A stretch of 64,000 nt of DNA from assembly GCA_019635715.1 (NCBI GenBank), contig JAHBYY010000005.1:1-64000 (forward strand). The letters are read 5' to 3'. Shown here one piece after another: positions 4,699 through 20,147 of the stretch (position 1 is its first letter; every line of letters begins with the position of its first letter). The DNA comes from Rhizobiaceae bacterium (lineage in GTDB: Bacteria; Pseudomonadota; Alphaproteobacteria; Rhizobiales; Rhizobiaceae). The translations under genes were made by a program, and so were the position numbers. The notes beneath the pieces are model-generated. The model did no database searches. It was not told the DNA's origin and was given only the letters and a program-made list of their open reading frames with translations.

Positions 4699-5113
4699 TG
4701 CCGTCTCTCCCTGCCGACGCCCGCAGCCAGTCGCCGCGGCGCATCGATATGTTCAGTTGGATATAACAATAGGAAGCCTGGATAGGTCAAGCACCGGCGC
4801 TTCGCCCTGTCGTCGCCCGCCGTTCCGAGGCGTGTCCGGCACGGAAATGTCGCAGACGCACCGCCGATTCGGCGCTCGCACCGGCCGAAGGGGCGGCCGC
4901 CGCGCTCCATGCTGCCGGCAGTGTGCTGTTCCACGCGAGAGCCCTCGCAGCGGCTCCCATCCGCCCCAATCGGCAGTGTCGTGGAAAAATTTTCCACAGT
5001 TCGTCAAAATCTGTTGCGAAAAATGCACGGGTAACGGAACTTTTGGGTGTTCCGGCGCGTCTCTAATTCCACCGATTATGTAGACTATGCTTCGTATTCA
5101 AAAGGAGGCTGGC
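4699..5113 (+). other. Divergent intergenic region between modA and the sulfate operon
   Basis: 415 bp without a convincing gene. Short frames here have no recognisable protein and poor starts. The modA-proximal end holds an AT-rich imperfect palindrome that could bind a ModE-type regulator. The sulfate-proximal 130 bp (about 4985-5113) are AT-richer than the surroundings and end in a strong AAAGGAGG ribosome site before sbp. No clear sigma-70 hexamer pair could be assigned with confidence. Confidence 0.5.
4743..4770. promoter_or_regulatory. Candidate ModE-type operator upstream of modA
   Basis: An AT-rich element 45-70 bp upstream of the modA start contains CGATAT, a 10-nt spacer and ATATAACAAT. 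This resembles the known ModE box layout (CGnTATA, spacer, TATAACG), but only the ATAT cores are symmetrical, so the match is partial. Its position between modA and the divergent sbp, with a ModE-like HTH gene in the same cluster, supports the guess. It could equally be an AT-rich promoter. Confidence 0.35.
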
Positions 5114-6148
5114 ATGACACTCAATCGCAGATCGATTTTCTACGCTGTCGCCGTGGCGGCCACCCTGCAATTCGGCGCGTCAGGCTTCGCCTATGCCGAT
5201 ACGACGCTGCTCAACGTGTCCTACGATCCGACCCGCGAACTCTACAAGGAATACAACGCCGCCTTCGCAAAGCACTGGCAAGCCGAGTCCGGCGAGGCCG
5301 TAACGATCCAGCAATCGCATGGCGGCTCCGGCAAGCAGGCGCGCGCCGTCATCGACGGTCTCGAGGCGGATGTCGTCACCCTGGCGCTCGAAAGCGACAT
5401 CAATGCCATCGTCGAGAAGAGCGGCAAGATCAACAAGGACTGGCGCACCAGATACGAGCACAATTCGTCGCCCTACACGTCGACCATCGTCTTCCTGGTC
5501 CGCAAGGGCAATCCCAAGGGCATCAAGGATTGGGGCGACCTGGTGAAGGACGGCGTCGAGGTGATCACGCCGAATCCGAAGACCTCGGGCGGCGCCCGCT
5601 GGAACTATCTCGCGGCATGGGCCTGGGCGAACAGTGAATATGGCGGCGACGAAGCCAAGGTGAAGGGCTACATCGGCGAACTGTTCCGCCATGTTCCGGT
5701 GCTCGATACCGGGGCGCGCGGCTCCACCACGACCTTCGCGCAGCGCCAGCTCGGCGACGTGCTGCTCGCCTGGGAGAATGAGGCCTTCCTGGTCGGCAAG
5801 GAGTTCGGCGCGGATCAGTTCGACATCGTCATCCCGCCGCAGTCGATCCTTGCCGAGCCGCCGGTCGCGGTCGTCGACGCCAATGTCGATGCGAAGGGCA
5901 CCCGAAAGGCGGCCGAAGCCTATCTCGCCTACCTCTATTCGCCGGAGGGGCAGCAGATCGCGGCGCGCAACTTCTATCGTCCCTCGAAGCCGGAATTGGT
6001 TCCCGCCGAAGAGCTGAAGCGCTTCCCGGAGCTGAAGCTCGTCACCATCGACGATCCGATCTTCGGCGGATGGGCGAAGGCGCAGCCCTATCACTTCGGT
6101 GACGGCGGGGTGTTCGACCAGATCTACAAGCCCGCTTCATCGAACTGA
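5114..6148 (+). CDS. sbp: Sulfate ABC transporter substrate-binding protein
   Basis: A 344-residue periplasmic sulfate/thiosulfate-binding protein feeding CysTWA. A Sec signal peptide ends around 'GFAYA-DTT' (residues 26-30). The mature part carries family hallmarks '[13 protein letters not shown]', '[13 protein letters not shown]' and '[20 protein letters not shown]', whose residues bind the oxyanion without metal. The ATG at 5114 is chosen over one at 5087 because AAAGGAGG lies 6 nt upstream of it and it starts directly with a basic signal-peptide n-region. It is the first gene of a four-gene operon divergent from modABC. Sbp or CysP would both fit; the sequence does not settle sulfate against thiosulfate preference. 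Confidence 0.95.
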
Positions 6149-6156
6149 GGTTCCGC

Positions 6157-7020
6157 ATGGCCGCCACCTCGCTGTCGAGGTCGGGCTGGCAATTCAGGAG
6201 GCCGAGCATCATCCCGGGTTTCGGGCTGACGCTCGGCTTTACGATTGCCTACCTGACGCTGATCATTCTCATCCCGCTCGCCGGCATCGTCTGGCGCACC
6301 AGCGGCCTGGGCTTCCAGGGGTTCTGGGCCATAGCGTCCGACCAGCGCGTCCAACGTGCCCTGGAGATATCGTTCGGGACGTCCTTCATTGCCGCGCTGA
6401 TCAACGTCGTGTTCGGAACGCTGGTGGCCTGGGTTCTGGTTCGCTACCACTTTCCCGGCCGGCGCATCGTCGACGCCGCCGTCGATCTGCCCTTCGCCCT
6501 GCCCACCGCCGTGGCAGGCATAGCGCTGGCGGCGATCTACGCGCCGAACGGCTGGGTCGGACAGTTGCTTGCCCCGCTCGGCATCAAGGTCGCCTTCACG
6601 CCGGTCGGCATCGTCGTCGCACTGGTCTTCATCGGGCTGCCCTTCGTGGTGCGGACCGTGCAGCCGGTCATGGAGGAGATCGACCGGGAGGTCGAAGAGG
6701 CCGCCGCGACACTTGGCGCCAACCGTTTCCAGACGATCAGCCGCGTCATCCTTCCCGGTCTGGCGCCGGCAATCCTCACCGGCTTCGCGTTGGCCTTCGC
6801 GCGCGCCGTCGGCGAGTACGGATCGGTGATCTTCATCGCCGGAAACATTCCGTTCGTCTCGGAGATCGCTCCGCTGCTGATCGTCATCCGCCTTGAGGAA
6901 TTCGACTACCAGGGCGCCACGGCGATCGCCGCCATCATGCTCGTGCTTTCCTTCGCCATGCTGTTCGTGATCAATCTCATTCAGGCCTGGAGCCGCAGGA
7001 GGTACGGATATGGCGTATGA
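6157..7020 (+). CDS. cysT: Sulfate ABC transporter permease CysT (CysU)
   Basis: A 287-residue inner-membrane permease with about six hydrophobic helices. The EAA loop that docks on the ATPase reads 'EEAAATLGANRFQTISRVIL' followed by PG. The stretches 'LPTAVAGIALAAIY' and 'RAVGEYGSVIFIAGNIP' are characteristic of CysT. It forms a heterodimer with CysW to import sulfate. It starts 8 bp after sbp and overlaps cysW by 11 bp, consistent with one transcript and coupled translation. Confidence 0.95.
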   Translation: MAATSLSRSGWQFRRPSIIPGFGLTLGFTIAYLTLIILIPLAGIVWRTSGLGFQGFWAIASDQRVQRALEISFGTSFIAALINVVFGTLVAWVLVRYHFPGRRIVDAAVDLPFALPTAVAGIALAAIYAPNGWVGQLLAPLGIKVAFTPVGIVVALVFIGLPFVVRTVQPVMEEIDREVEEAAATLGANRFQTISRVILPGLAPAILTGFALAFARAVGEYGSVIFIAGNIPFVSEIAPLLIVIRLEEFDYQGATAIAAIMLVLSFAMLFVINLIQAWSRRRYGYGV

Positions 7021-7921
7021 TGCCGTAGCCGGTTCGGCGGCCGACCTGCCGGCGAGAGGAGAGAGAATGGCTGGAGCGCGGTTTCGGGGAGCAACAAGCG
7101 AGGGGCCGATCGCCAGGACGATCCTCATCCTGTCGGCACTCGTCTTCCTTGCGCTGGTCCTCGTCCTGCCCCTGGCAGCGGTGTTCATCGAGGCTTTCCG
7201 CAAGGGGCCGGCCGAATTCCTGCTGGCGCTGGGAGATCCCGACACGCTGGCCGCGGTACGCCTGACGCTGACCGTCGCGGCGATCGCCGTGCCGCTCAAC
7301 CTCGTCTTCGGCGTGGCCGCGGCCTGGGCGATCGCCAAGTTCGAATTCAAGGGAAAGGCTTTCCTGACCACGCTGATCGACCTGCCGTTCTCGGTGTCGC
7401 CGGTGATTTCGGGCCTGGTCTATGTGCTGCTTTTCGGGGCAGGGAGCGTTTTGGGTCCGTGGCTGAAGTCGCACGGCATCGAAGTGCTCTTTGCCGTCCC
7501 CGGCATCGTGCTCGCCACCATCTTCGTGACCTTCCCCTTCGTCGCCCGTGAGCTCATTCCGCTCATGCAGGACCAGGGCTCGGGCGACGAGGAGGCGGCG
7601 CTGTCGCTCGGCGCGTCGGGTTGGCAGGCCTTCTGGTACGTGACGCTGCCCAACATCAAATGGGGACTGCTTTACGGCGTGCTGCTCTGCAATGCGCGTG
7701 CCATGGGCGAGTTCGGCGCCGTGTCGGTGGTTTCGGGCCATATCCGTGGCCTGACCAATACGATGCCGCTGCATGTCGAGATCCTCTACAACGAGTACAA
7801 TTTCGTCGCCGCCTTCGCCGTCGCCACCCTGCTGGCGGGTCTGGCGCTGGTGACGCTCGTGCTCAAATCCTTTCTCGAATACCGCTTTGGCGACGAGATC
7901 GCCGCCGCGGCCAAGCATTAG
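7010..7921 (+). CDS. cysW: Sulfate ABC transporter permease CysW
   Basis: A 303-residue permease partner of CysT. After a roughly 35-residue hydrophilic N-terminus come six hydrophobic helices. Diagnostic pieces are 'DLPFSVSPVISGLVYVLLFG', the EAA loop 'EEAALSLGASGWQAFWYVTL' and 'RAMGEFGAVSVVSGHIRG'. The first ATG (7010) overlaps the cysT end by 11 bp. A second in-frame ATG at 7067, preceded by GAGAGGAGAGA, is an alternative start that would remove 19 residues. Both encode the full permease fold. Confidence 0.94.
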   Translation: MAYDAVAGSAADLPARGERMAGARFRGATSEGPIARTILILSALVFLALVLVLPLAAVFIEAFRKGPAEFLLALGDPDTLAAVRLTLTVAAIAVPLNLVFGVAAAWAIAKFEFKGKAFLTTLIDLPFSVSPVISGLVYVLLFGAGSVLGPWLKSHGIEVLFAVPGIVLATIFVTFPFVARELIPLMQDQGSGDEEAALSLGASGWQAFWYVTLPNIKWGLLYGVLLCNARAMGEFGAVSVVSGHIRGLTNTMPLHVEILYNEYNFVAAFAVATLLAGLALVTLVLKSFLEYRFGDEIAAAAKH

Positions 7922-7930
7922 GGCTGACCG

Positions 7931-8992
7931 ATGGACGTCTCGATCCGCAATGTGCGCAAGGAATTCGACCGCTATCCGGCGCTGCACAACGTCTCGCTCG
8001 ACATCCGCTCGGGCGAGCTGATCGCGCTTCTCGGTCCTTCCGGGTCCGGCAAGACGACGCTGCTGCGGCTGATCGCCGGCCTCGAACGGCCGACCATGGG
8101 CGCCGTCCATTTCGGCAGCGAGGACGCGTCGCATCACTCGGTCCAGGAGCGCAACGTCGGCTTCGTCTTTCAGCACTACGCGCTGTTCCGCCACATGACG
8201 GTCGCCGAGAATGTCGGCTTCGGGCTGAAGGTCAGGCCAGCCGCGACGCGGCCGGCGACTTCCGAAATCCGGCGGCGCGCCGACGAGCTGCTCGACCTGG
8301 TGCAACTGTCCGGGCTGGGCAAGCGCTATCCCAACCAGCTTTCCGGGGGCCAGCGCCAGCGCGTCGCGCTCGCCCGCGCATTGGCGATCGAGCCGCGCGT
8401 GCTGCTGCTCGACGAGCCGTTCGGGGCGCTGGACGCACAGGTGCGGCGTGAACTGCGCCGCTGGCTGCGCGAGATCCACGACACGACCGGCCACACGACG
8501 GTTTTTGTCACCCACGACCAGGAGGAGGCGCTCGAGCTCGCGGACCGGGTCGTCGTGATGAGCCAGGGCAGGATCGAGCAGGTCGGCAGCGCCGACGATG
8601 TCTACGACAGGCCCAACTCGCCCTTCGTCTATGGCTTCATCGGCGATTCCAGCGCGCTGCCCGTGCATGTCGAGCGAGGCCAGGTCTGGCTGAAGGACCG
8701 CGCGCTCGGCCTGTCCGCGCCGGAGGCTTCGGACGGCGAGGCGATGCTCTATTTCCGTCCCCATGACGTCGAGCTGCTCGACGGCTGCGGCGGATGCATC
8801 GCGGGAACGGTCGCGGCCAGCCGCCGGGTCGCCGGAACGCGGCGCGTCGAACTGGAGATCGGCGGCGAGCAGCATCGCGTCGAGATCGAGCTGCCGGTCG
8901 ACCACCCGGCCGCGTCCAAGTCGCGGATCGCTTTCCGGCCGAAACGCTGGAAGGTTTTTTCGCAGCCGGTGGAGGCCGCGAAGGCGGCCTGA
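7931..8992 (+). CDS. cysA: Sulfate ABC transporter ATP-binding protein CysA
   Basis: A 353-residue ATPase completing the sulfate importer. Walker [10 protein letters not shown] is at residues 35-43, signature LSGGQRQR at 137-144, Walker B VLLLDEP at 157-163 and the switch histidine at 195 in 'VFVTHDQEE'. A C-terminal TOBE-like regulatory region (from about residue 235, with '[11 protein letters not shown]') follows. It is the last gene of sbp-cysT-cysW-cysA, 9 bp after cysW. About 30 bp downstream, a GCCGCCG/CGGCGGC hairpin (9023-9041) could weakly terminate transcription but has no T-run. Confidence 0.95.
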
Positions 8993-9238
8993 CCGGCAGG
9001 CCGCCGCCGCTCGACCTGGCAGGCCGCCGCGAATCGGCGGCGCTGCTGAGCAGCGGAAGACGGCGAGCCACCTGCCGGGACCTCTCGTGGCGGCCGCGAC
9101 GGACGCGGTGTGGCGGCCGCACGGCCGGGCGCGAGCCCGAGATGTCCAGGCCGCTCGCGACCCCGACCGCCTCGGCGATCAGCCAAGGTTCAGTTTCATG
9201 TTTTTGATGAAGACCGCGTAGCAACGCGTTGAAAGAAA

Positions 9239-9315
9239 TGGCGCGAGTGACGGGGCTCGAACCCGCGACCTCCGGCGTGACAGGCCGGCACTCTAACCGA
9301 CTGAGCTACACCCGC
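9239..9315 (-). tRNA. tRNA-Asp (GTC)
   Basis: 77 nt fold as a complete cloverleaf on the minus strand. The acceptor stem is GCGGGTG/CACTCGC with one G-T pair, there is a D-loop TAGCTCAG, and the anticodon stem is CCGGC/GCCGG around loop CTGTCAC, giving anticodon GTC (Asp). The T-arm is GCGGG-TTCGAGC-CCCGT. The terminal CCA is encoded in the DNA. It is divergent from tRNA-Val, 232 bp away. Confidence 0.97.
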
Positions 9316-9547
9316 GCAGGACAGCGTCAGGTGTGACGCCGTCAGTGGCCGCTCGATTAAGCGGTTCGCCAAAGTGTGTCAAGCGCTTGAACACACATCG
9401 CCGTGGAAATGATGACGGGTTGCAAGGCATTGCAAAACGCAGTCCGGGGAAGGTGCTTTTTCGCACCGCAACGCCGTCCGCCTGCCGCTTGCGGCGGCCG
9501 CCGAGCCATCTTGCGCAGACAGTCCGAAACGCCTAAACGGCGGTCGG

Positions 9548-9623
<76 letters not shown>

Positions 9624-10065
9624 TTTTCCTCATCTCACGGCAGTTCTACCCCGCCGGCCTGGGAGACCGAAAACCGTCCGCATGAGGTCGATTCCCGTTC
9701 AGCCCTCGACTTCATGCAGACGATTTTCGGGTTCTCGGGCAGACGGAGTAAAACTGTCCCCGGCACCTACGTCCTCTCCACCGCGAACTTCATGAGCCGA
9801 CCTCGGGTTGTCCGGCAGACGGGGTATCGCGTCGCGAACGCCTGCGATGTGCCGGCGACAGCCTGGGCCGCGGCCACGTTCGGGTTCGAAGATTCTCGCC
9901 CTCCCTCCACCAATTCTCTGCCCCGGATGGACGCGGCTCAGGAGTTCAGCGAAGCGCGCCTGTCACAGCCCCTGGGCGGTCGCAGCGGGCGGCTCGGGTA
10001 GTCGGCGGGAGGCGCCGCGCCTGCCTCGCTCGAGGTCGGCGCAGCGCCGGTGCGGGGTATTGCGC
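9624..10065. other. Non-coding stretch downstream of tRNA-Val
   Basis: 442 bp between tRNA-Val and the end of the binding-protein gene, with no supported CDS; apparent frames are continuations of unrelated neighbouring frames. At 9885-9916 a 'GGTTCGAAGATTC...CTCCACCA' stretch superficially resembles the 3' part of a tRNA, but the T-stem does not pair. Such a stretch could be the scar of an integrated element; no integrase or matching att copy is seen here. Confidence 0.5.
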
Positions 10066-11712
10066 TCAGGCCTGTTCGAGCCAGACTTTCTGCAGATCCA
10101 TCTGGAAGGTCTGGTGAACGCCGTAGTTCTTCACCTTCGTGCCCGAATGGCTGTAGAGCTTCTGCCAGAATGGCTGGATGATGACGCCGGAATCCTGAAG
10201 GATCGTCTCGAGGTCCTTCATCACCTCGCGGCGCTTTTCGACGTCGCTGAGCGACAGCGCTTCCTTCAGCTTGGCGTCGAAGGTCGCGTCGGAATAGGCG
10301 CTTTCGTTCCAGGCCTCGCCGGTGCGGTAGCCGAGCGCCAGGATCTGCACGCCGAGCGGGCGCATGTACCAGATCGTCATCGAGTAGGGATATTTCGTCC
10401 AATCGTTCCAGAAGGTGGAGCCGGGCAGCACGGTGCGCTTCACCTTGATGCCGGCGTCGCGCAACTGCGCGGCGATGGCGTCGCCCGTCGCCTTCTGCCA
10501 GTCGTCCTCGATGGTGATCAGCTCGTGTTCGAAGTCGGCCTGCCCGGCCTCCTCCATCAGCTTCTTGGCGCCTGCCGCGTCGCGCGTCTTCTTCGGCAGC
10601 GCATAGTATTCGGGATGGATCGGGCTGACGTGATGGTTCTCGCCGACGTCGCCGCGTCCGTTGTAGCCGAGATCGAGCACGACCTTGTTGTCGACCGCCA
10701 TCTGCAGGGCGTTGCGCACGCGTTTGTCGTCATAGGGCTTCTGCGTGACGTTGGTGCGGGCGACGAGCGTCGTCGCCGTAGCGACCTCCGACTTGGTCAG
10801 GCCGATATTGTCGAGGATGTCGATGTAGTCGGACGGCGTCTCGAAATTGATGTCGATCTCGCCCGATTCGAAGGCGTTCACCGTCGCCGAGAAGTCGGTG
10901 CCGTAGTCGATGAACTCGACGGAATCGAGCAGTGCCTCGCCGCCCCACCATTTGCCGTTCTCGCGCCGTTTCACCACCGCCTTGGTTCCGGTCTCGTAGG
11001 AGACCAGTTCGAACGCACCGGTGCCGATCGGCTTGCTGATCGGATCGTCGCCGGAATAGCTGCGGTGAACGACGAGGGCGGGATAGTCGGTGAGGTTCGG
11101 GATCAGCGAGATGTCCGGTGCGCCGAGCTTGAGCTGAACGGTGTGATCGTCGACCTTGACGATGGCGCCGTCCCTGGCCTTGCCGGTCGCCTCGTCGATC
11201 AGGCCGCCGACGCGGGCTGCCATCGAGTTGCCGGACACGTTCTTCTCGCACCACCGGTTGAGGTTGTAGATCACGTCCTCGGCGGTGAAGGCGTCGCCAT
11301 TCGTCCAGGTGATGCCCTGGCGGACGTGCAGGACATATTCGGTGGCGTCGTCATTGACCTCCCAGCTTTCGAGCAGGACGGGTTCGAAGGTGAACTCCCG
11401 TGTATAGCGCACCAGCGGTTCGAGCCAGGTGCGCGAGATGTTGGCGAGCTCCACCCAATCGTAGTTGCGGGGATCCTTCTGGCCTTTCACCGCCATGGCG
11501 ACCCGCAGCGTACCGCCCTTCGTCCCCTCCTGCGCCATTGCCGGGGTCGGCGCGGCCAACCCTGCCATGCTGTAGGCGAGGGCCGTCGAAGCGCCCATGG
11601 CGCTGGCCATTGCGAGAAATTCGCGCCGGTCGATGCGCCCGCTGCGCGCCTCCATTGCCATCCGAGAGATGGTCTCCGGGACGCAGTCCCCATTGCTTCT
11701 GAAATATCGCAT
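10066..11712 (-). CDS. ABC transporter substrate-binding protein, family 5 (peptide/opine type), Tat-exported
   Basis: A 548-residue periplasmic binding protein of the SBP_bac_5 (DppA/OppA) family. A long N-terminus carries a twin-arginine signal '[20 protein letters not shown]' near residues 27-46 and a cleavage-like 'TPAMA-QEG' near residue 60. The mature region starts '[20 protein letters not shown]' and includes '[21 protein letters not shown]', the usual family signature. No permease or ATPase gene follows, so it is an orphan in this window. It is the last of three minus-strand genes with the DgcA-like and MttB-like enzymes, suggesting it delivers their substrate (for example a betaine), which is inference. 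A GGGAGG site 5 nt before the ATG supports the start. Confidence 0.88.
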
Positions 11713-11771
11713 GCGTTCCTCCCCTTGGTTCCCTTGTCGTTCGGACTGCTTTCGCCGAAGAACTTCGCTTC

Positions 11772-13826
11772 CTAGATCCTCAGCGCGAAGCGGATGCCGT
11801 CGTAGATCGCGGCGTGGATGTTGCGCGACGCGACCGCGTCGCCGATGCGCAACAGCGTGAAGGCTCCCGCTGCGTTGGTATCGGGAAAGATGTCGCCGCC
11901 GGTCACCAGCCTGTCGTAGTCGACGGCTCCGAGATTGCGGGAGTGCGGCTTCAGCGCCAGATACAGCTCGTCGAGCGGAGCGGTGCCATGCTCGGCGACG
12001 ACCTGGTCGACAGGGCGTTCCTCGCGATAGCTCTTCGAGAAATCGGAGCCGAGGGTGGCGACCAGGCGATTGCCGTCACGGCGGAGCGATTTCAGACGCG
12101 TGTTGATGGTGATCCGCACGCCCTTGTCCTGAAACGTGCGCATGTAGGGAACATGGTTCATCCCACCCATTTCGGGGGCGAAGAAGCGTTCCGGCGACAC
12201 AAGTTCCAGTCGCGACCCGGCATTGGCGATGAATTCGGCGGCGCCCATACCCTGATGTCCGCCATTGTCGTCGTAGAGCAGGACGTTCTCGGCGGGTTTT
12301 ACCGCGCCCGACAGGATGTCCCAGGACGACACCAGGAGATCTTCACCCGCCTCGAGCGGCGGAGTCTGCGGCAGGCCGCCCGTCGCGATGACCGCCACGT
12401 CGGGCGACAGCGAGGCCACGTCCGCCTCCTCGGCCCAAATATCGTAGCGCATCTCGACGCCGAGGCGCTCAAGCTCGGCGAGGCGCCAGTCGACGATGCC
12501 GATCAGCTCGCGGCGGCGCGGGTTCTGCGTGGCGAGGCGGATCTGCCCGCCGGCCTGGCTGGCGGCCTCCAGCACGGTCACCGAATGGCCGCGCTCGGCA
12601 GCGACCCGGGCGGCCTCCAGTCCGGCCGGGCCGGCACCGACGATCACGACGCGCTTCAACGGACCATCGGAGCGCGTGATGATGTGCGGGATCGAGGCTT
12701 CGCGGCCGGTTGCGGCATTGTGGATGCACAGCGCCTCGCCGCCCTCGTAGATGCGGTCGAGGCAGTAGGTGGCGCCGACGCAGGGACGGATGCGATGCTC
12801 CTGTCCAGCCAGCACCTTGCCGACGATATGCGGCTCGGCGATGTGCGGCCGCGTCATGCCGACCATGTCGAGCTTGCCCTCGGCGACGGCGTGGCGCGCG
12901 GTGGCCACGTCCGATATGCGCGCGGCGTGGAAGGTTGGGAACTTGGTCGCCGCGCGGATTTCGCCGGCGAAGTCGAGCGTCGGCGCGGAGCGCATGCCGG
13001 TGATCGGGATGACGTTCGTCAGCGATGCATCGGTCTCGATCGTGCCGCGGATGATGTTGAGGAAATCGAACTTTCCCGACGAGGCCAGCCGGCGCGCGAT
13101 CTCGATGCCTTCGGCCCTGGTGATGCCCTTGTCGGCATCCTCGTCGGCGACCATGCGGATGCCGACAATGAAATCCGGACCGACGGCGGCGCGCACCGCG
13201 TCGATGACGCGCCAGGTGAAGCGCAGGCGGTTGTCGAGCGAGCCGTTGTAGTCGTCGTCGCGATGGTTGGTCAGCGGCGACCAGAATCCGTCCATCAGAT
13301 GGCCGTAGGATTCGAACTCGATGCCGTCGAGGCCGGCGGCCTGCATGCGCTGCGCCGCGCTGGCATAGTCGGCGATGATGCGCTCGATGTCCCACTCTTC
13401 CATCGTCTTGGGGAAAGCGCGGTGGGCGGGCTCGCGGACGGGCGAGGGGGCCAGCACCGGCAGCCAGTCCGCCTTGTTCCAGCCGGTGCGGCGGCCCAGA
13501 TGCGTGATCTGGATCATCACCTTGCAGTCGTACTCGTGGCACTGGTCGGCGAGCTCGCGCAGCCACGGCACGATCTCGTCCCGGTAGGCGTGGAGGTTGC
13601 CGAACGCCGCCGGACTGTCGCGGCTGACGATCGCCGAACCGGCGGTCATCGTCAGGGCGATGCCGCCCTTGGCCTTTTCGGCGTGGTAGAGGCGGTAGCG
13701 TTCTTTCGGCATGCCGTCTTCGGAATAGGCCGGCTCGTGGCTCGTCGACATGACGCGGTTCTTGAGCGTCAGATGTCTGAGCCGGTAGGGCTGGAGCAGC
13801 GGGTCTTTGGCGAGATGGACGTTCAT
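11772..13826 (-). CDS. DgcA-like NADH:flavin oxidoreductase (probable N-demethylase subunit)
   Basis: A 684-residue two-part flavoprotein. Residues 1-345 form an Old Yellow Enzyme TIM barrel; residues 393-684 form a FAD/NAD-binding domain with the dinucleotide motif GAGPAG at 397-402. Between them lies the iron-sulfur region of the TMADH family, but the usual C-x2-C-x3-C-x11-C reads C349, A352, C355, C367: the second cysteine is Ala. From memory the same 'CVGA-YC-DR' pattern and the ending '[17 protein letters not shown]' occur in DgcA, a subunit of dimethylglycine demethylase. No DgcB-like partner is present in the window. It is adjacent to an MttB-like methyltransferase gene. Start 13826 is chosen for the GGGAGG 7 nt upstream and the conserved N-terminus; the frame is open to 13919. 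Substrate is inferred. Confidence 0.85.
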
Positions 13827-13890
13827 GGGAGCGCCTCCCGCTGGGGGTGCAAAGGTCCGTCGAAAGAGCTGATCAGGGCAACGCTGTTGC

Positions 13891-13992
13891 TTCGACCCCC
13901 ACCCCTTACCCCTCCCCACAAGGGGGAGGGGATTTCTGAGACGTATATGCCCCCCTCCCCCTTGCGGGGAGGGGTAAGGGGTGGGGGTCGAA
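13891..13992. repeat. 37-bp inverted repeat (intergenic palindrome)
   Basis: Two 37-nt arms (13891-13927 and 13956-13992) are reverse complements with one mismatch. The 28-nt centre begins with GGGG and ends with CCCCCC and so extends the hairpin partly. Arms are built from C-rich runs such as ACCCCTTACCCCTCCCC. It lies between the MttB-like and DgcA-like genes and would be transcribed as a very stable hairpin in their mRNA. It has no transposase and resembles dispersed palindromic elements of rhizobial genomes. Confidence 0.9.
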
Positions 13993-14062
13993 GCCGGTCA
14001 TGCACTTGGATCGATGCCTTGCCTGGTGCGATCGTCATCGTCACTGGGGCGTCCGTTTCGAA

Positions 14063-15616
14063 TCAGCTTACGGTATCGGGTAGGGCGTTCTCGCGCCTCG
14101 CGATGAAGTCGCGCAAACCTTCCGCGACACCCTCGTCGAGCCTGGGCTCCTCGTAGTCCTTCAGCATGTTGCGGGCCTTCTCGCGGCCGCGCGTGTCGTG
14201 ATCTTTGGCGCCTTCGGCATTCCACTGCTCGAAGGAATTGAAATCCATCAGCGTCGGCATGAAGAAGGCGGTCTCGAAATGGTCGAGCGTGTGCTGCGTG
14301 CCGAGGAAGTGACCCTGCGGCCCGACCTCGCGTACCGCCGCCATCGCGTCCTTGAAATCGTCGAAGGACAGTCCGCCGGCATATTTGTACCAGCCGACGA
14401 GCTGCTCGCAGTCGGTCGCGAACTTGGAATAGCCGCAGGTCAGGCCCGCCTCCAGCCAGCCGGCCGAATGCCAGATGTAGTTGGCGCCGGACAGGATCGC
14501 GGCGTGCATCAGCATGTTGGACTCGTAGCCGGCCTGCGCATCGTTGAGCTTCGAGCCGACGTGGAAGCCGGAGGTGCGCCACGGCAGTCTGTATTTCCGC
14601 GCCAGCGCGCCCATCAGATACATCATCTGGGCGGCTTCGGGGGTGCCGCCCATCGGCGCGCCGGTCTTCATGTCCACGGTCACCATGAACTGTCCGTAGA
14701 GCTGCGGCGAGCCGGGGCGGATGAGCTGGGTGAAGGCCAGGCCGGCCAGCGCTTCGGCATTGACCTGCGCCACCGATCCGACCGCAGAGGCTGACGTCGA
14801 CGCGCCGCACAGCGCGAAGGGCGCCAGGATCAGCGGCTGGTTGTGACGCGCGTACACCTTCATGGCGTCGAGCATGGTGGCGTCCCACACCAGCGGCGAA
14901 TTGCAGTTGGTGATGGAGACGAGGACCGGGTTCTCTTTCACATAGTCGTCGCCGAAGACGATGCCGGCCATCGCCATCGTGTCCTCGGCGCGATCCTTGG
15001 AGGTGACGATGCCCATGAACGGCTTGTCGGAATGCTTCAGCGCCGAATGGATGATGTGGAGATGCCGCTTCGGCACCGCGATCTCCATCGGCTCGCAGAT
15101 GATCGAGCTGGAGGAATGCAGCGCCGGCGACATGTAGGCCAGCTTGTGAAAGTTGTTCAGGTCTTCGAGCGTGCCGTAGCGGCGGTTGCCGTCGAGATCC
15201 CGGATATAGGGCGCGCCGTACATGGGGATGAAGATCGAATTCTTGCCGCCGACCTTCACCGTGCGTCCCGGATTGCGGGCGTTCAGCGTGAATTCCGAAG
15301 GGATCTTGGCGACGAGTTCCATCAGCAGGGCGCGGTCGATGCGGACCCGCGTGTCGCTGACGTCGGCGCCGGCCTGCTTCCACATGGCGATCGCTTCGTC
15401 GTCGCGGAACTCGCAGCCGACGTCCTCCAGGATGGCCAGCGACTCGTTGTGGATCAGTTCGATCGCCTCGTCCGGCACGATGTCGTAGACCGGAATCTTG
15501 CGGACGAGCGTCGGGAAAGAGGCGACCGGCGCGCTGCGCACCGCCTTGCGCCCAAGCCGTCCGCCGCCGCGGCGGTGGGTTGGCGTCTGGTCCGTCGCCG
15601 CGATCGTATCCGACAT
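14063..15616 (-). CDS. Trimethylamine methyltransferase (MttB) family protein, non-pyrrolysine
   Basis: A 517-residue member of the MttB superfamily. The family includes pyrrolysine-containing trimethylamine:corrinoid methyltransferases and non-pyrrolysine betaine methyltransferases such as MtgB. Visible pieces are 'EAIELIHNESLAILEDVGCEF', 'KIPSEFTLNARNPGRTV', 'GGTPEAAQMMYLMGALARKY' and 'NMLMHAAILSGANYIWHSAGW'. The frame runs uninterrupted with no internal TAG, so it cannot contain pyrrolysine and is more likely to act on a quaternary amine. No cognate corrinoid protein (MttC type) is in the window. Together with the DgcA-like gene just downstream it suggests betaine to dimethylglycine to sarcosine chemistry; that pathway is inference. 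A GGGAG site lies about 12 nt before the ATG. Confidence 0.88.
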   Translation of the reverse strand: MSDTIAATDQTPTHRRGGGRLGRKAVRSAPVASFPTLVRKIPVYDIVPDEAIELIHNESLAILEDVGCEFRDDEAIAMWKQAGADVSDTRVRIDRALLMELVAKIPSEFTLNARNPGRTVKVGGKNSIFIPMYGAPYIRDLDGNRRYGTLEDLNNFHKLAYMSPALHSSSSIICEPMEIAVPKRHLHIIHSALKHSDKPFMGIVTSKDRAEDTMAMAGIVFGDDYVKENPVLVSITNCNSPLVWDATMLDAMKVYARHNQPLILAPFALCGASTSASAVGSVAQVNAEALAGLAFTQLIRPGSPQLYGQFMVTVDMKTGAPMGGTPEAAQMMYLMGALARKYRLPWRTSGFHVGSKLNDAQAGYESNMLMHAAILSGANYIWHSAGWLEAGLTCGYSKFATDCEQLVGWYKYAGGLSFDDFKDAMAAVREVGPQGHFLGTQHTLDHFETAFFMPTLMDFNSFEQWNAEGAKDHDTRGREKARNMLKDYEEPRLDEGVAEGLRDFIARRENALPDTVS

Positions 15617-15667
15617 GCTCTCGCTCCGCTCCCTGGGCGGATCGACGCTGCGGATGTCGATCCGTCC

Positions 15668-16636
15668 TCAGGCTTTAGGAGAGCGCCTGCGGGCCGGCTG
15701 TTCAAGCGAAATAGGTAGCCGGCTCGCTTGAGTTGAACTCAATGATCCAAGAGCGACCAGCCAGTCCTTGACCAGTTCCGCCTGCGGGCTGAGCGGCCGC
15801 CGCGCGCTCCAGGTGACGAAATTGGACTGCGGCGCGACGATCTCGGCGTCGCTCACACGCACCAGCGTGCCGGCCTCGATCAGCGGTTCCACCAGCACGC
15901 TCCAGCCGAGCGCCACGCCCTGGCCGCTGCGCGCCGCCTGCATGGCGATCACGTAGCTGTTGAAGCGGCGCACATTGAGGCGCGGGTCGGGAAAGCCGAC
16001 GTCGCGCAGGAACTCAGCCCAGGTCGTCCACGCCCAGTCGGGTCCCTCGACCGACAGCAATTGCAGATGCGTGAGTTCAGCGACAGAGTTTACCGGATAG
16101 GCCTTGGCGAAGGCGGGACTGGCGACGGGGAAAATCCGGTCCTCGTAAAGCTTGGCCGAAAACTCGTCGGGCCACTCGCCGTCGCCGTAGCGGACACGCA
16201 GGTCGACGTCGGGCCGGTCGAGGCCGCGCGGATGATCGGAGATGACGTGGTCGACGACGATGTCGGGATGCAGGTTCCAGAACGAACCCATCCTCGGCAT
16301 CAGCCAGAGATTGGCCATGGCCATGGTGCTGCCGACCGTCACCACCGCCTGCCCGCCGAAGGATCTGATCTGGCGGAAGGTCGAGGAGATGCGTTCGAAC
16401 CCGTCGCGCAAGGCCATCGCCATCGCCTGGCCCTCACGGGTCAGTTCGACGGCGCGGTGACGGCGCAGGAACAGCGGGCTGCCGAGTTCTTCCTCCAGCA
16501 TGCGGACCTGGCGCGAGATGGCGCCCGGCGTGACGTTCAATTCCTCCGCGGCCTTGGTGAGGCTCAGATGGCGCGCCGCCGCCTCGAATGCCGCGAGGGC
16601 GATGAGCGAGGGGAGGCCATAATATCTGCGGACCAT
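15668..16636 (-). CDS. LysR-family transcriptional regulator, GcvA-like
   Basis: A 322-residue LysR-type regulator. The N-terminal winged HTH ('HLSLTKAAEELNVTPGAISR' and 'RMLEEELGSPLFLRRHRAVE', residues 23-62) is followed by a periplasmic-binding-protein-like effector domain ending in 'WSARRPLSPQAELVKDWL', as in GcvA-like regulators. It lies upstream of the minus-strand MttB-DgcA-SBP genes and is divergent (210 bp between starts) from the second TMADH-type flavoprotein gene, the typical placement of a regulator acting on a divergent promoter. The effector is unknown; a methylated amine or glycine derivative is a guess from context. Confidence 0.88.
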   Translation of the reverse strand: MVRRYYGLPSLIALAAFEAAARHLSLTKAAEELNVTPGAISRQVRMLEEELGSPLFLRRHRAVELTREGQAMAMALRDGFERISSTFRQIRSFGGQAVVTVGSTMAMANLWLMPRMGSFWNLHPDIVVDHVISDHPRGLDRPDVDLRVRYGDGEWPDEFSAKLYEDRIFPVASPAFAKAYPVNSVAELTHLQLLSVEGPDWAWTTWAEFLRDVGFPDPRLNVRRFNSYVIAMQAARSGQGVALGWSVLVEPLIEAGTLVRVSDAEIVAPQSNFVTWSARRPLSPQAELVKDWLVALGSLSSTQASRLPISLEQPARRRSPKA

Positions 16637-16846
16637 GCGACTGCTTTCGGCGTGCGCGCAGGCGAAGCGGGCCCTGGCCGGAACCCTTCGCTTGCCCCCA
16701 GCTCAACCGGCGGGGAATTTCATTCAGGTTGACTATTAGCCGCGCTTGCCCGCCGATGCGCAACGGCCGTCTTCATCGGTGAGGACGACATAGTCGCAAG
16801 TACCATTCGCATCGGCCATCTGCCGGTGCTCTCAGGGAGGGCGCTC

Positions 16847-18829
16847 TTGGCTGATCGGACGTTCAAGCGGCTGTTCACGCCGGTCACCCTGCGCGGCAAG
16901 ACGCTGCGCAACAGGATCGTTTTCGGAGCGCACACGGCCAATATGGCGGTGGAAGGCCTGCCGACGGAGCGGCAAGTCGCATACTACGCCGAGCGCGCCA
17001 TCGGCGGCGCCGCGATGATCGTCGTCGAGCCGGTGCCGGTGCATGCCGCGGCGGTGCTGACGCGCGGCAACTTCCGCCATGACGACGACGGCATCATTCC
17101 GCATTTCCGCAAGGTGACGGAGGCGATCCGCGGCAACGGCGCGGTGGCGATCCAGCAGCTCTACCATGTCGGGCAGCACGGCGATTCGGACAACTCGTTC
17201 CATGCCGGCTGGTCGCCCTCCGGCCTGCCGAGCTACCACGATTCCGACGGCTCCCACCGGATGACCGAGGCCGAGATCGAGGAGACGATCGACGGCTTCG
17301 TCCAGGCGGCGCGGCGCTGCAAGGAGGCGGGATTCGACGGTGTCGAGGTGTGGGCCGCCTATCACGGCATGCTCGACCAGTTCTGGACCCCTTGGTCGAA
17401 CCGGCGCGACGACCGCTGGGGCGGCAGCCTCGAAAACCGCACCCGCATGAGTCGCGAGGTGATGACGCGCATTCGGAAACTCTGCGGCGAGGATTTCATC
17501 GTCGGACTGGCGGTCAACGACGACGAGGACGTCAAGGTCGCACTCAAGCGCGAGGCGCTGGCCGAGATCGTCGATCTGCACGACCGCGACCATCTGATGG
17601 ACTATGTAACCTGCGGATCGGGCAGCTATTTCGATTTCTACAAGATCATTCCGCCCTTCGTGTATCCCGAGAAGCTGGGGGCCGATCTGTCGGCCATCCT
17701 CAAATCGACGGTCCGTCACGCGCTGGTGACGGCCGAGAGCCATATCCGCACGCCGGAGAATGCCGAGGCGGTGCTGAGCGAGGGCAGGGCGGATCTGGTG
17801 TCGATCGTGCGCGGCCAGATCGCCGATCCGCACCTCGCCAACAAGGCCGCCGCCGGTCGCCCGGAGGACATCCGCGGCTGCCTGTCGTGCAACCAGATGT
17901 GCTGGGGCCGGCGCTCGCGCGACTACTGGATAAGCTGCGTCATCAATCCGTCGGCCGGCCGCGAGTGGGAATGGGGCGGCGACCGGTTCACGGCGGCCGA
18001 GAGGCCGAAACGCGTCCTTGTCGTCGGCGGCGGGCCGGCCGGCCTGGAGGCGGCGCGGGTCGCTGCGGAGCGCGGCCATCGCGTCGTGCTTGCGGAAGCG
18101 TCGGACCGGCTGGGCGGGCAGTTCAGGCTCGCCGGAATGCAGCCTCGCCGCGCGCAGATCCTCGATCTCATCGACTGGTACGAGCGGCAGCTCGGGCAGT
18201 TGCAGGTCGAGATCCGCTACGGGCAGTATGTCGAGGCGGAGGATGTCGCGCGCGAGGGCGCGGACCATGTGGTGATCGCCACGGGCTCGCTGCCGCCCGA
18301 CGGGGCGTTCCAGCGGGCATTGCCGCAGTTCGACGAATTGCCCGGCGGCGGGGCGGTTATGTCCGCCGAGTCTGTCATGGCGCGCGAGGCGCGGCCGGGC
18401 AGGCGGGTCATCCTGCTCGACGACGGCGGCAACTGGAAGGGCTGCGGTACGGCCTGGCGGCTGGCCGAGGACGGGCACGAGGTGACGCTGGTGACGCCCG
18501 ATGCGCTGGTCGGCAAGGAATTGCAGCGCATGGCGGTCGACCTGCCGCTGCGCCGCGCACTGGCGAAACTCGGCGTCCGTTCGGTGACGGAAAGCGCGAT
18601 CGTCGGCTGGGACGGAAAGGTCGCGAAGGTGGTATCGCTGCTCGACGGCAGCGAGAGCGAGATCGAGGCGGATGCGCTGGTCTACGCCGCCACCGGCATG
18701 GCGCAGGACGGGCTGGCGATCGACCTCATGGCGCGCGGCATCGCGTTCACGGCGATCGGCGACTGCACCGCGTCGCGGCAGGCCGCATTCGCCATCCACG
18801 ATGGGCGCAGGATCGGCCTGTCGCTCTGA
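16847..18829 (+). CDS. TMADH-type FMN/4Fe-4S/FAD oxidoreductase
   Basis: A 660-residue enzyme of the trimethylamine dehydrogenase/dienoyl-CoA reductase family. Residues 1-330 are an Old Yellow Enzyme barrel with 'AYHGMLDQFWTPWSNRR' and 'WGGSLENRTR'. C345, C348, C352 and C364 give the full C-x2-C-x3-C-x11-C 4Fe-4S site; GGGPAG at 394-399 starts the FAD/NAD domain. Unlike the neighbouring DgcA-like enzyme, all four cluster cysteines are kept. The start is read as TTG at 16847 because AGGGAGGG lies 6 nt upstream; a GTG at 16826 is in frame but has no ribosome site. It is transcribed divergently from the LysR gene. Amine N-demethylation or dehydrogenation is likely from family and context; the substrate is unknown. 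Confidence 0.85.
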   Translation: MADRTFKRLFTPVTLRGKTLRNRIVFGAHTANMAVEGLPTERQVAYYAERAIGGAAMIVVEPVPVHAAAVLTRGNFRHDDDGIIPHFRKVTEAIRGNGAVAIQQLYHVGQHGDSDNSFHAGWSPSGLPSYHDSDGSHRMTEAEIEETIDGFVQAARRCKEAGFDGVEVWAAYHGMLDQFWTPWSNRRDDRWGGSLENRTRMSREVMTRIRKLCGEDFIVGLAVNDDEDVKVALKREALAEIVDLHDRDHLMDYVTCGSGSYFDFYKIIPPFVYPEKLGADLSAILKSTVRHALVTAESHIRTPENAEAVLSEGRADLVSIVRGQIADPHLANKAAAGRPEDIRGCLSCNQMCWGRRSRDYWISCVINPSAGREWEWGGDRFTAAERPKRVLVVGGGPAGLEAARVAAERGHRVVLAEASDRLGGQFRLAGMQPRRAQILDLIDWYERQLGQLQVEIRYGQYVEAEDVAREGADHVVIATGSLPPDGAFQRALPQFDELPGGGAVMSAESVMAREARPGRRVILLDDGGNWKGCGTAWRLAEDGHEVTLVTPDALVGKELQRMAVDLPLRRALAKLGVRSVTESAIVGWDGKVAKVVSLLDGSESEIEADALVYAATGMAQDGLAIDLMARGIAFTAIGDCTASRQAAFAIHDGRRIGLSL

Positions 18830-18854
18830 CGCGAGCCGTTGTCGATCTCGGATT

Positions 18855-20147
18855 TCAGAGCAACTGTTCGAGCTTCTTTCCGATCTTGACGTAGCGCAGC
18901 GGATCGACCGCCCTGCCGTCGCGCCGCACCTCGTAGTGGAGGTGGGGCCCGGTGGACCTTCCGCTCGAACCGACCTCGCCAACGACTTCGCCCAGGTCGA
19001 TCGACTGGCCCTCGGTGACGTCGATGCGGCTCAGATGCGCGTAGCGCGTCGACAGGCCATTGCCGTGGTCGATCTCGACCATGCGGCCGTAGCCGCCGTT
19101 CCAACCGGCCTTGGTGACGACGCCGGCGGCCGTGGCCAGAGCCGGGTAGCCGGTCGGCGCGCGGAAATCCATGCCGGAATGCATGGCGGGCATGCCGACG
19201 ATCGGATCCTTGCGGACCCCGAAAGTGCTGGAGATCGAGCGGCCGGGGGCGGGATTGGCGATGGGCAGGCTGCGGGCCTCGCGCTTGACCTTGTCGAGCA
19301 TGTCGAGGGCGCCGTCGAGTTCCTTGACCTTGGCGTCGAACACGGAGCTGTTTGCGGCCGCGAAGAATGGTCCGCCCATCGCGGACTTGCTGGAATCGGT
19401 CTCCAGCGTCAGCCCGGCATCGGCCAGCGTGTCGGCGATCTTGTCCGCCGTCTCGTAGGCATCGTCGGCAAGCGTCGTGATCTTGGTGAGCTGCTCGTTC
19501 TCGATCGACCGCAGCGACTGGTTGATCTCGACGAAGAGCTTGTCGGCGCGATCGGCCTCCGACAGGGGCGATTGGGTGCTGTCGCGGCCGGACCAGAAGC
19601 TGAAGGGCGAGGCGGCCGCCGACGCGTAGCCAAGCAGCGGCGAGGAGAAGCCGTCCGCTTGCGCGCGCTGGTCGGGCCTGGCCGCCGGGACGGGCACCTT
19701 GTCGGCGGTACCGCCGTCCGTGTCGGCGCTCGCGCCCTCGATCTTGCCGGCGCGGTCGAGGATGGGTTCGAGGCGGCCATGGCGCTGCGTCAGCTTCGAC
19801 TGCCGTTCGAGCAGTTCGGTGACCTTGGTTTCCATGAGCTGCTGGTCGAGCAACTGGCGGCTGGTGATGCGGTCGACCTGCGCCCGCAGCGCCGAGATCC
19901 GATCTTCGTAGGCGTGCTGCATGCGGGCCTGGCGCGCGATCGCCGCGCCGATGAGATCATCGCGAAACACTAGGTAGCTGGTCGCGAGCAGGTAACCCAC
20001 GGTCACCGCTGCCACGGCCGAGCCCAGGAAGGCGGCGAGCCAGGGCCGTATCGTGAAGTGGCTGATCCTGTCGCCGCGGGCGATGATGACGGTGTGAGGT
20101 TCGCGGCGCTTGCCGAACACCGAAGTCTGGCCTGAGGTTGATGTCAT
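18855..20147 (-). CDS. M23 (LytM) family metallopeptidase, membrane-anchored
   Basis: A 430-residue cell-wall hydrolase or regulator. A short cytoplasmic N-terminus is followed by one transmembrane helix ('LAAFLGSAVAAVTVGYLLAT', about residues 37-56), a coiled-coil stretch rich in R, L, Q and E (about 70-130), a Ser/Ala-rich linker and a C-terminal LytM domain. The zinc ligands are intact: 'HSGMDF' (H-x3-D) and 'HLHYE' (H-x-H). Active LytM domains cut peptide cross-links in peptidoglycan; the coiled coil may link it to division or envelope partners. It sits alone between the TMADH-type gene (opposite strand, convergent) and the small membrane peptide. Confidence 0.9.
   Translation of the reverse strand: MTSTSGQTSVFGKRREPHTVIIARGDRISHFTIRPWLAAFLGSAVAAVTVGYLLATSYLVFRDDLIGAAIARQARMQHAYEDRISALRAQVDRITSRQLLDQQLMETKVTELLERQSKLTQRHGRLEPILDRAGKIEGASADTDGGTADKVPVPAARPDQRAQADGFSSPLLGYASAAASPFSFWSGRDSTQSPLSEADRADKLFVEINQSLRSIENEQLTKITTLADDAYETADKIADTLADAGLTLETDSSKSAMGGPFFAAANSSVFDAKVKELDGALDMLDKVKREARSLPIANPAPGRSISSTFGVRKDPIVGMPAMHSGMDFRAPTGYPALATAAGVVTKAGWNGGYGRMVEIDHGNGLSTRYAHLSRIDVTEGQSIDLGEVVGEVGSSGRSTGPHLHYEVRRDGRAVDPLRYVKIGKKLEQLL

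Follow-up and report, generated by a model that had tools for sequence, protein, structure and literature searches.

The subject of this analysis is a five-gene cluster in a Rhizobiaceae bacterium (assembly GCA_019635715.1, contig JAHBYY010000005.1), of which the first 64,000 nucleotides of the contig constitute the window that was analyzed. The cluster encodes a solute-binding protein (SBP5), two flavoenzymes (FMO1 and FMO2), a methyltransferase of the MttB superfamily and a LysR family regulator. The source genome is a Mesorhizobium-like draft of 4.57 Mb in 151 contigs (denoted here by C-numbers) that is 85% complete. The genes and intergenic elements of the cluster are the following.

10066..11712, minus strand: SBP5, family-5 solute-binding protein (PF00496, E 1.1e-68)
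11772..13832, minus strand: FMO1, flavoenzyme 1, predicted N-methyl amino acid demethylase of the HpbA/StcD type (Oxidored_FMN and pyridine-nucleotide oxidoreductase domains, Fe-S motif)
13889..13994, strand not assigned: 44-pair palindrome between mttB and FMO1 (fold z-score -13.6)
14063..15616, minus strand: MttB, non-pyrrolysine corrinoid methyltransferase of the MttB superfamily (PF06253, 668 bits)
15668..16636, minus strand: LysR, similar to GcvA and choline-sulfate regulators (PRK11139, 242.6 bits, below the cut-off of 288)
16746..16763, minus strand: candidate LysR box TTGC-N10-GCAA in the lysR/FMO2 intergenic region (pattern conserved in relatives)
16826..18829, plus strand: FMO2, flavoenzyme 2, similar to NCR, FadH and trimethylamine dehydrogenase (TMADH) (intact CxxCxxxC...C Fe-S motif)

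The genes lysR, mttB, FMO1 and SBP5 follow one another in this order on the minus strand, with gaps of 51, 230 and 59 bases, respectively, and lysR and FMO2 are divergent, with 189 bases between them. The linkage of the five genes reported in a preliminary description of this DNA was thus recovered, and the families of all five were confirmed by Pfam and NCBIfam profiles. The ratio of nonsynonymous to synonymous substitution rates (dN/dS) in comparisons with six relatives is between 0.06 and 0.21 for all five genes, a range that excludes FMO2 of locus L021 (0.80), which is a paralogous comparison and not an orthologue. All five are genuine, intact genes that evolve under purifying selection.

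A search with the window MttB matched 198 stretches, of which 181 encode a relative, and the best 80 named loci were kept (relatives' loci are denoted by L-numbers). The best named relatives are labelled as Mesorhizobium or other Rhizobiaceae and Hyphomicrobiales, and one as 'Bacterium' only. These are related species, so that counts among them are not independent, and the gene counts cover the examined stretch, up to 10 kb on each side. SBP5 is present in 79 of the 80 loci (the remaining one, L046, ends inside SBP5 at the contig end); in 72 it lies immediately 3' of mttB and has the same orientation. FMO1 occurs in 64 loci (61 of the window type and 3 of the StcD type); nine of the 16 loci without it are stretches shorter than 16 kb, among which L029 shows a piece of FMO1, and the other seven are of full length and lack the gene. 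FMO2 occurs in 14 loci, the window-type LysR in nine, and another LysR in 70. The exact order of the window (divergent FMO2, LysR, MttB, FMO1, SBP5) recurs in five of the 80 loci (L015, L051, L056, L061 and L080). The arrangements include mttB-FMO1-SBP5 and mttB-SBP5-...-FMO1, the orientation of FMO1 differs in L070, and in L056 the unit is inverted beside M23 and BCP genes. A Shinella plasmid carries a different mttB (43%) whose end precedes the start of the match to an FMO1 orthologue (74%) by about 27 bases. Because the two genes are linked across these differing arrangements, including the Shinella pair, mttB and FMO1 remain together through rearrangement. The recurrence of the exact order and the frequencies of SBP5 and FMO1 show that the five-gene set is no chance grouping. 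The low dN/dS values and the recurring order rule out a decayed or partial cluster.

The PF06253 domain covers residues 16-512 of the window MttB, far above its cut-off of 25 bits. The frame has no internal stop, hence no in-frame amber codon, and therefore no pyrrolysine codon; together with the score of the trimethylamine enzyme model TIGR02369 (279.6 bits, below the cut-off of 525), this bears out the earlier assignment of MttB to the non-pyrrolysine type. The matches to solved proteins include 4yyc (E 4e-161) and the glycine betaine methyltransferase 9yce (E 2.6e-106). The window MttB is 54-55% identical to enzymes encoded beside ProXWV-type transporters, 51-54% to hydroxyproline-linked enzymes and 48% to an enzyme encoded beside mtgC on contig C78, one of the five PF06253 genes of the source genome. 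It is a paralogue of the latter with an HpbA-type partner and, in relatives, an HpbD-type one, so that it probably acts on a different betaine.

The corrinoid protein MttC, the DgcB electron partner and transporter permeases had been described as absent, and the route as unlike any known complete system. The absence holds locally, as judged by the translations of the window, but not for MttC in the genome as a whole. The genome search for MttC homologues that had been suggested (together with one for DgcB) found PF02607 matches in two places: a 1283-residue frame, which is MetH-like because PF00809 also matches it, and a stand-alone corrinoid protein at C78:42103, which is 95% identical to the MttC of an Aminobacter cluster described below and, among the models compared, scores best with those for MtgC (181-216 bits, each short of its cut-off). 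The C78 gene adjoins another mttB and a DUF1638 gene (DUF1638 over cut-off), and a betaine-homocysteine-methyltransferase-like gene was also found on this contig (part of the gene scanned). A PF00809 match on C94 is over the cut-off for the methyl-H4F:corrinoid methyltransferase model NF005719 (392 bits) and is denoted MtgD; near it are an activase resembling RamA/AcsV (over the cut-off of PF17651 but under those of the NCBIfam models) and, at the contig end, a gene fragment that reads as MetF-like in our own assessment. By homology, MtgC-, MtgD- and RamA-like proteins and DUF1638 are all encoded in the source genome. Similarly, MttC was found in all 49 relatives searched (of 50 chosen from the 80 loci), with best matches at least 91% identical.

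In Ruegeria pomeroyi, the demethylation of glycine betaine and the synthesis of methionine both rely on one MtgC, and other compounds were suggested, in general terms, as substrates of further pfam06253 paralogues (PMC12478193). In Eubacterium limosum, MtpB, MtcB and MtyB use a common MtqC encoded in another cluster (PMC8604678). Since the MttB paralogues of both organisms likewise use one corrinoid protein encoded apart, an MtgC core acting in trans is a published architecture. The claim of a route unlike the known systems is accordingly not sustained: the modular corrinoid logic and the constituent gene families are already known, and the local gene gaps are no mark of an odd incomplete pathway.

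The flavoenzyme FMO1, previously taken to be DgcA-like, is 62% identical to a Paracoccus protein recorded as HpbA, 61% to a StcD-type protein of R. anhuiense and about 60% to a homologue on pSymB of S. meliloti, which is probably StcD (the record is unannotated). With DgcA-type proteins, identity is 47% for the product of the DgcB-adjacent gene of L121, and it is 45% and 47% for two genes in L122. In the FMO1 tree, three DgcA-type rows are set apart with support of 98/99, and a window clade of nine rows is recovered at 96/96; the branching order of the HpbA, StcD and window clades is not fixed, and the long branches of FMO2 and DgcA may join falsely. On these comparisons FMO1 is placed closer to the N-methylproline demethylases HpbA and StcD than to DgcA, and for this reason DgcB is not the expected partner. 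No match to DgcB (DUF3483) was found in the 85% complete genome; the search itself works, with DUF3483 over the cut-off in 3 of 115 alphaproteobacterial genomes. A DgcAB component was ruled out as the identity of FMO1 on both grounds. The FMO1 relative in R. anhuiense adjoins genes for electron-transfer flavoprotein (ETF) alpha and beta, ETF-quinone oxidoreductase (ETF-QO) and S-(hydroxymethyl)glutathione dehydrogenase, a neighborhood that suggests ETF as the acceptor and formaldehyde as a product. The Fe-S motif of FMO1 has alanine instead of the second cysteine; as this residue is constant in 69 of 69 rows (the window included, and some loci entered twice), it is a trait of the family.

Linkages in relatives point to the substrate. 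In both of two Aminobacter plasmids, the genes for LysR, MttB (88%), SBP5 (86%), MttC, an HpbD-like enolase, FMO2 (81%) and a protein similar to pyrroline-5-carboxylate reductase (P5CR) are consecutive. The best solved matches of the Aminobacter enolase-superfamily protein are 4e8g (E 2e-144) and 2pmq/4h2h (E 2e-125), which we take to be the HpbD proteins of Paracoccus and Pelagibaca, and relatives at 56% identity are named hpbD, 4-hydroxyproline betaine 2-epimerase, in four records. Within the examined stretches, mttC and an HpbD-like gene are each present in seven of the 80 loci. Among 38 plasmid records with an HpbD-like gene (E <=1e-90), an mttB lies within 120 bp in 18, within 3 kb in 21 and within 10 kb in 24, and at 18 kb in one; the distances derive from 60 of 66 mttB records with one place per record, and the records are not independent, seven of the 38 being from Cereibacter sphaeroides. 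The adjacency of mttB and the HpbD-like gene is also seen in Leisingera, Mesorhizobium, Neorhizobium, Sinorhizobium and Alisedimentitalea.

The mttB genes located directly beside HpbD-like genes on plasmids encode proteins 50-54% identical to the window MttB. Of five neighborhoods of such genes that were read (L115-L119), four contain genes for dihydrodipicolinate synthase (DHDPS) family proteins, aldehyde dehydrogenases and FAD oxidases, and L117 and L118 have an adjacent annotated HpbD-like gene. This enzyme set has been described for 4-hydroxyproline degradation (PMC4113996), and the mttB loci of Rhodobacterales and Mesorhizobium (L116-L119) are candidates for a cobalamin-dependent hydroxyproline betaine pathway. 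In Paracoccus pantotrophus, hpbD instead adjoins the genes of a Rieske pair (oxygenase and reductase), and genes for a betaine transporter and a P5CR-like protein are also present there. The simplest reading of these contexts is that MttB would replace the Rieske pair in the catabolism of proline-type betaines, assuming that both act at the same step. As a separate observation, a second, different enolase-superfamily gene is present in 16 of the 80 loci; in L018 it occupies positions 14350-15549, between SBP5 and FMO1, and its nearest solved proteins are labelled 'putative isomerase' and 'isomerase'.

The four-cysteine Fe-S motif of FMO2 is complete in 19 of 19 rows. The residue aligned with a cysteine of histamine dehydrogenase 3k30 is threonine in FMO2 and glutamate in FMO1; in TMADH and histamine dehydrogenase (HADH), this cysteine binds flavin mononucleotide (FMN) covalently. 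The covalent-FMN cysteine is thus absent from both proteins in these alignments, and FMO2 scores better to NCR and FadH than to TMADH. FMO2 is accordingly regarded as an NCR/FadH/TMADH-like flavoenzyme with an intact Fe-S motif, and its identification as a true TMADH degrading trimethylamine was rejected. In R. anhuiense, a relative of FMO2 (68%) stands with genes for a betaine ABC transporter, a P5CR-like protein and Ldh.

The SBP5 protein carries a twin-arginine-type RRxFL motif that is present in 81 of 81 relatives checked and, with no permease seen nearby, matches the earlier account of an orphan exported SBP. In the window, the nearest permease-like frames (6157-7921, within another unit at 5087-8992) read as a sulfate-type transporter from their translations, no family search having been made. 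No permease is listed beside SBP5 in the two Aminobacter gene tables, although no systematic permease search was made across the 80 loci; in L015, the predicted proteins downstream read as a branched-chain-type transporter. Among ten plasmid regions encoding SBP5 relatives of 47-74% identity (L115, L132-L140), three have the gene beside mttB or mttC (L115, L139 and L140), and the other seven represent different catabolic contexts; none of the ten has a Dpp-type permease in the same unit, although transporters of other kinds, accompanied by SBPs of their own, are listed close by in four (L135, L136, L137 and L140). SBP5 thus looks like a member of a recurring orphan SBP subfamily and, given that SBPs of this subfamily often stand alone, its isolation is by itself no sign of missing genes. 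The 19 matches to solved structures, mostly peptide- or dipeptide-binding proteins (best E 7e-29), do not allow the ligand to be deduced. The relatives in L132-L138 (47-63%) are encoded beside fumarylacetoacetate hydrolase, enolase plus Ldh, sulfatase and TauD clusters. On the Mesorhizobium onobrychidis plasmid pOM4 (L139 8001-10441), SBP5 (74%) and mttC, next to conjugation genes, are the only components of the cluster listed.

From these data we infer the following substrate, order of reactions and roles. The cluster would be a substrate-specific arm of aerobic cobalamin-dependent demethylation, most likely acting on proline betaine (stachydrine) or on a closely related compound, for instance hydroxyproline betaine, a proposal to which we give an even chance of being correct. 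MttB would take one methyl group off the quaternary nitrogen and load it onto the cobalamin of the MtgC encoded on C78, and MtgD, encoded on C94, would pass it to tetrahydrofolate. FMO1 would then demethylate N-methylproline oxidatively to proline and formaldehyde, with the electrons probably passing to ETF. FMO2 might be a second amine-oxidizing flavoenzyme of the pathway, acting perhaps on the opposite stereoisomer or on a hydroxylated form, and SBP5 might bind the ligand, or a plant compound related to it, and deliver it to a permease whose gene lies elsewhere. Betaine demethylation as such, which had been suggested previously, is well supported by gene linkage. More broadly, it is possible, at somewhat less than even probability, that in aerobic alphaproteobacteria (Mesorhizobium, Aminobacter, Leisingera, Cereibacter and others) MttB paralogues replace or supplement the Rieske oxygenase and deliver the first methyl group of proline or hydroxyproline betaine to the common MtgC core.

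Several observations weigh against these proposals. The probability given to the broader one was lowered slightly because both mttB and a Rieske pair are found in Rhodobacter CZR27 and because L115 shows no hydroxyproline genes. In CZR27 (L128; NZ_CP023549.1 683745-697000), mttB (46%), the Rieske pair, ProXWV-type genes and hpbA are encoded together, with mttB 1.4 kb from the Rieske pair and about 10 kb from hpbA, so that mttB and the Rieske pair are not strict alternatives. In L115, the HpbD-like gene lies beside mttB, but the gene table, which is incomplete, contains no hydroxyproline-degradation genes. Thirteen of the 38 HpbD-like plasmid genes have no mttB among the mttB records listed, and the HpbD-like gene of Shinella H4-D48 has neither an mttB nor a Rieske gene within 9 kb on each side. 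The window holds the mttB-HpbA core without the epimerase, and the best candidate for an HpbD orthologue in the 85% complete source genome is 35% identical. The MttB tree, which is poorly rooted because its root depends on a single very long branch, neither groups the window MttB with its hydroxyproline-linked relatives nor identifies the nearest MttB clade, and SBP5 belongs to family 5 (peptide type) and not to ProX. Finally, a Rieske pair is encoded on C108 (L145 3485-6170), unlinked to the window and 55% and 51% identical to the Paracoccus pair; the NCBIfam models that fit it best, GbcA and GbcB, score below cut-off, identity is 30-34% for the other two PF00848 genes, and no other betaine genes were recognized around it in a 9 kb stretch. 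Given this pair, MttB may not be the only route, or may not be the route for proline betaine.

Among the alternatives, glycine betaine as the substrate, with MttB as an MtgB-type enzyme and FMO1 as a dimethylglycine demethylase, is unlikely but has specific points in its favor. The carnitine pathway ends in glycine betaine, and FMO1 relatives (71-74%) are found near carnitine-degradation genes on two plasmids, of Sinorhizobium B11 and R. tropici, a context that is also compatible with dimethylglycine and was counted against the proline-type reading. Furthermore, the aerobic MtgB belongs to the MttB superfamily (PMC12478193), and MtgC would be common to both pathways. Against this, the separate mttB on C78 already stands with mtgC and DUF1638, on the contig with the betaine-homocysteine-methyltransferase-like gene, some relatives show linkage of window-type mttB with genes of the HpbD-like and P5CR-like types, and FMO1 is nearer to HpbA/StcD than to DgcA. 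Some other plant or osmolyte N-methyl compound (pipecolate betaine, trigonelline, betonicine only or a non-betaine) degraded by the same two-step logic has a similarly small probability: the varied extra enzymes in relatives, such as the second enolase (16/80) and FMO2 (14/80), and the many catabolic contexts of SBP5 relatives would be in line with it, whereas the HpbD-like, P5CR-like and HpbA-like links point to five-membered-ring betaines. It is very improbable that the C108 Rieske pair removes the first methyl and FMO1 the second, with the window MttB a mere neighbor serving another compound, because, even though this pair is present in the same genome and Rhodobacter CZR27 and Paracoccus pantotrophus have Rieske genes in the vicinity of hpbA or hpbD, the C108 pair is unlinked in the source genome and the MttB-FMO1 linkage is kept in four gene arrangements, including the Shinella mttB-FMO1 pair.

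With respect to regulation, the wider TTGC-N10-GCAA pattern was found, among 147 loci, only in two copies in the source genome itself and in L015, L021, L028, L051, L056 and L061, and each match is upstream of a window-type lysR; the pattern is absent in L026, L078 and L080 despite the same lysR. LysR would control both divergent units in the proposed scheme, with which the candidate box is consistent without being proof. The core of the palindrome at 13889-13994 has 23 copies in the genome and occurs six times as pairs 67 bases apart; this repeated intergenic element may separate the expression of mttB from that of FMO1 and SBP5. A search for regulatory RNAs in positions 9000-19000 at the gathering threshold yielded two tRNAs only.

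The proposed pathway shares features with several known systems, and what is unusual is the combination, with MttB standing where the HpbD/HpbA proline-betaine pathway has a Rieske demethylase. The HpbABCD pathway for proline and hydroxyproline betaine was reportedly described in Paracoccus by Kumar in 2014. It is also mentioned in PMC4113996. The cluster resembles this pathway in having an HpbA-family second demethylase and, in relatives, an HpbD-type epimerase and a P5CR-like gene, and differs from it in having an MttB and not the Rieske pair that adjoins hpbD in P. pantotrophus. The stc genes of S. meliloti include an stc-type Rieske system, instead of which the window has a linked MttB. 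The likeness to stachydrine catabolism in Sinorhizobium meliloti (PMC12239276) lies in FMO1, through the probable StcD on pSymB. DgcAB dimethylglycine demethylase belongs to the same flavoenzyme superfamily as FMO1, but at 45-47% identity and with DgcB not found in the 85% complete draft.

As in the MtgBCD(E) system of Ruegeria pomeroyi, the first enzyme is of the MttB family, several mttB paralogues occur per genome (here five), and MtgC, MtgD with a MetF paralogue, RamA and DUF1638 are encoded apart from mttB (PMC12478193); unlike in that system, the window MttB has an HpbA-type partner and, in relatives, an HpbD-type one. The MtpB/MtcB/MtyB enzymes of E. limosum, with MtqC and MtqA, are likewise substrate-specific MttB paralogues that depend on one corrinoid protein encoded elsewhere, and MtpB acts on proline betaine, but E. 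limosum is an anaerobic acetogen and the available part of the source notes no oxidative second step (PMC8604678). The parts of the literature searched contained no description of an aerobic MttB that acts on proline-type betaines in partnership with an HpbA-type flavoenzyme. In Phaeobacter inhibens, the lag phase is shortened by stachydrine, and the genes highly transcribed with algae include one for a cobalamin-dependent methyltransferase (PMC11306105); these data agree with an MttB step but do not show it.

Stachydrine is exuded by Medicago seeds and activates NodD2, and its catabolism by Sinorhizobium meliloti affects root colonization and nodulation (PMC12239276). If the proposed pathway is correct, it would supply definite substrates on which to test the mttB paralogues of aerobic bacteria, a question left open in PMC12478193; the use of plant betaines by rhizobia would require vitamin B12 and be coupled to methionine synthesis, stachydrine use would be linked to the supply of B12 and one-carbon units, and an oxygen-independent cobalamin first step could allow stachydrine to be used where oxygen is scarce.

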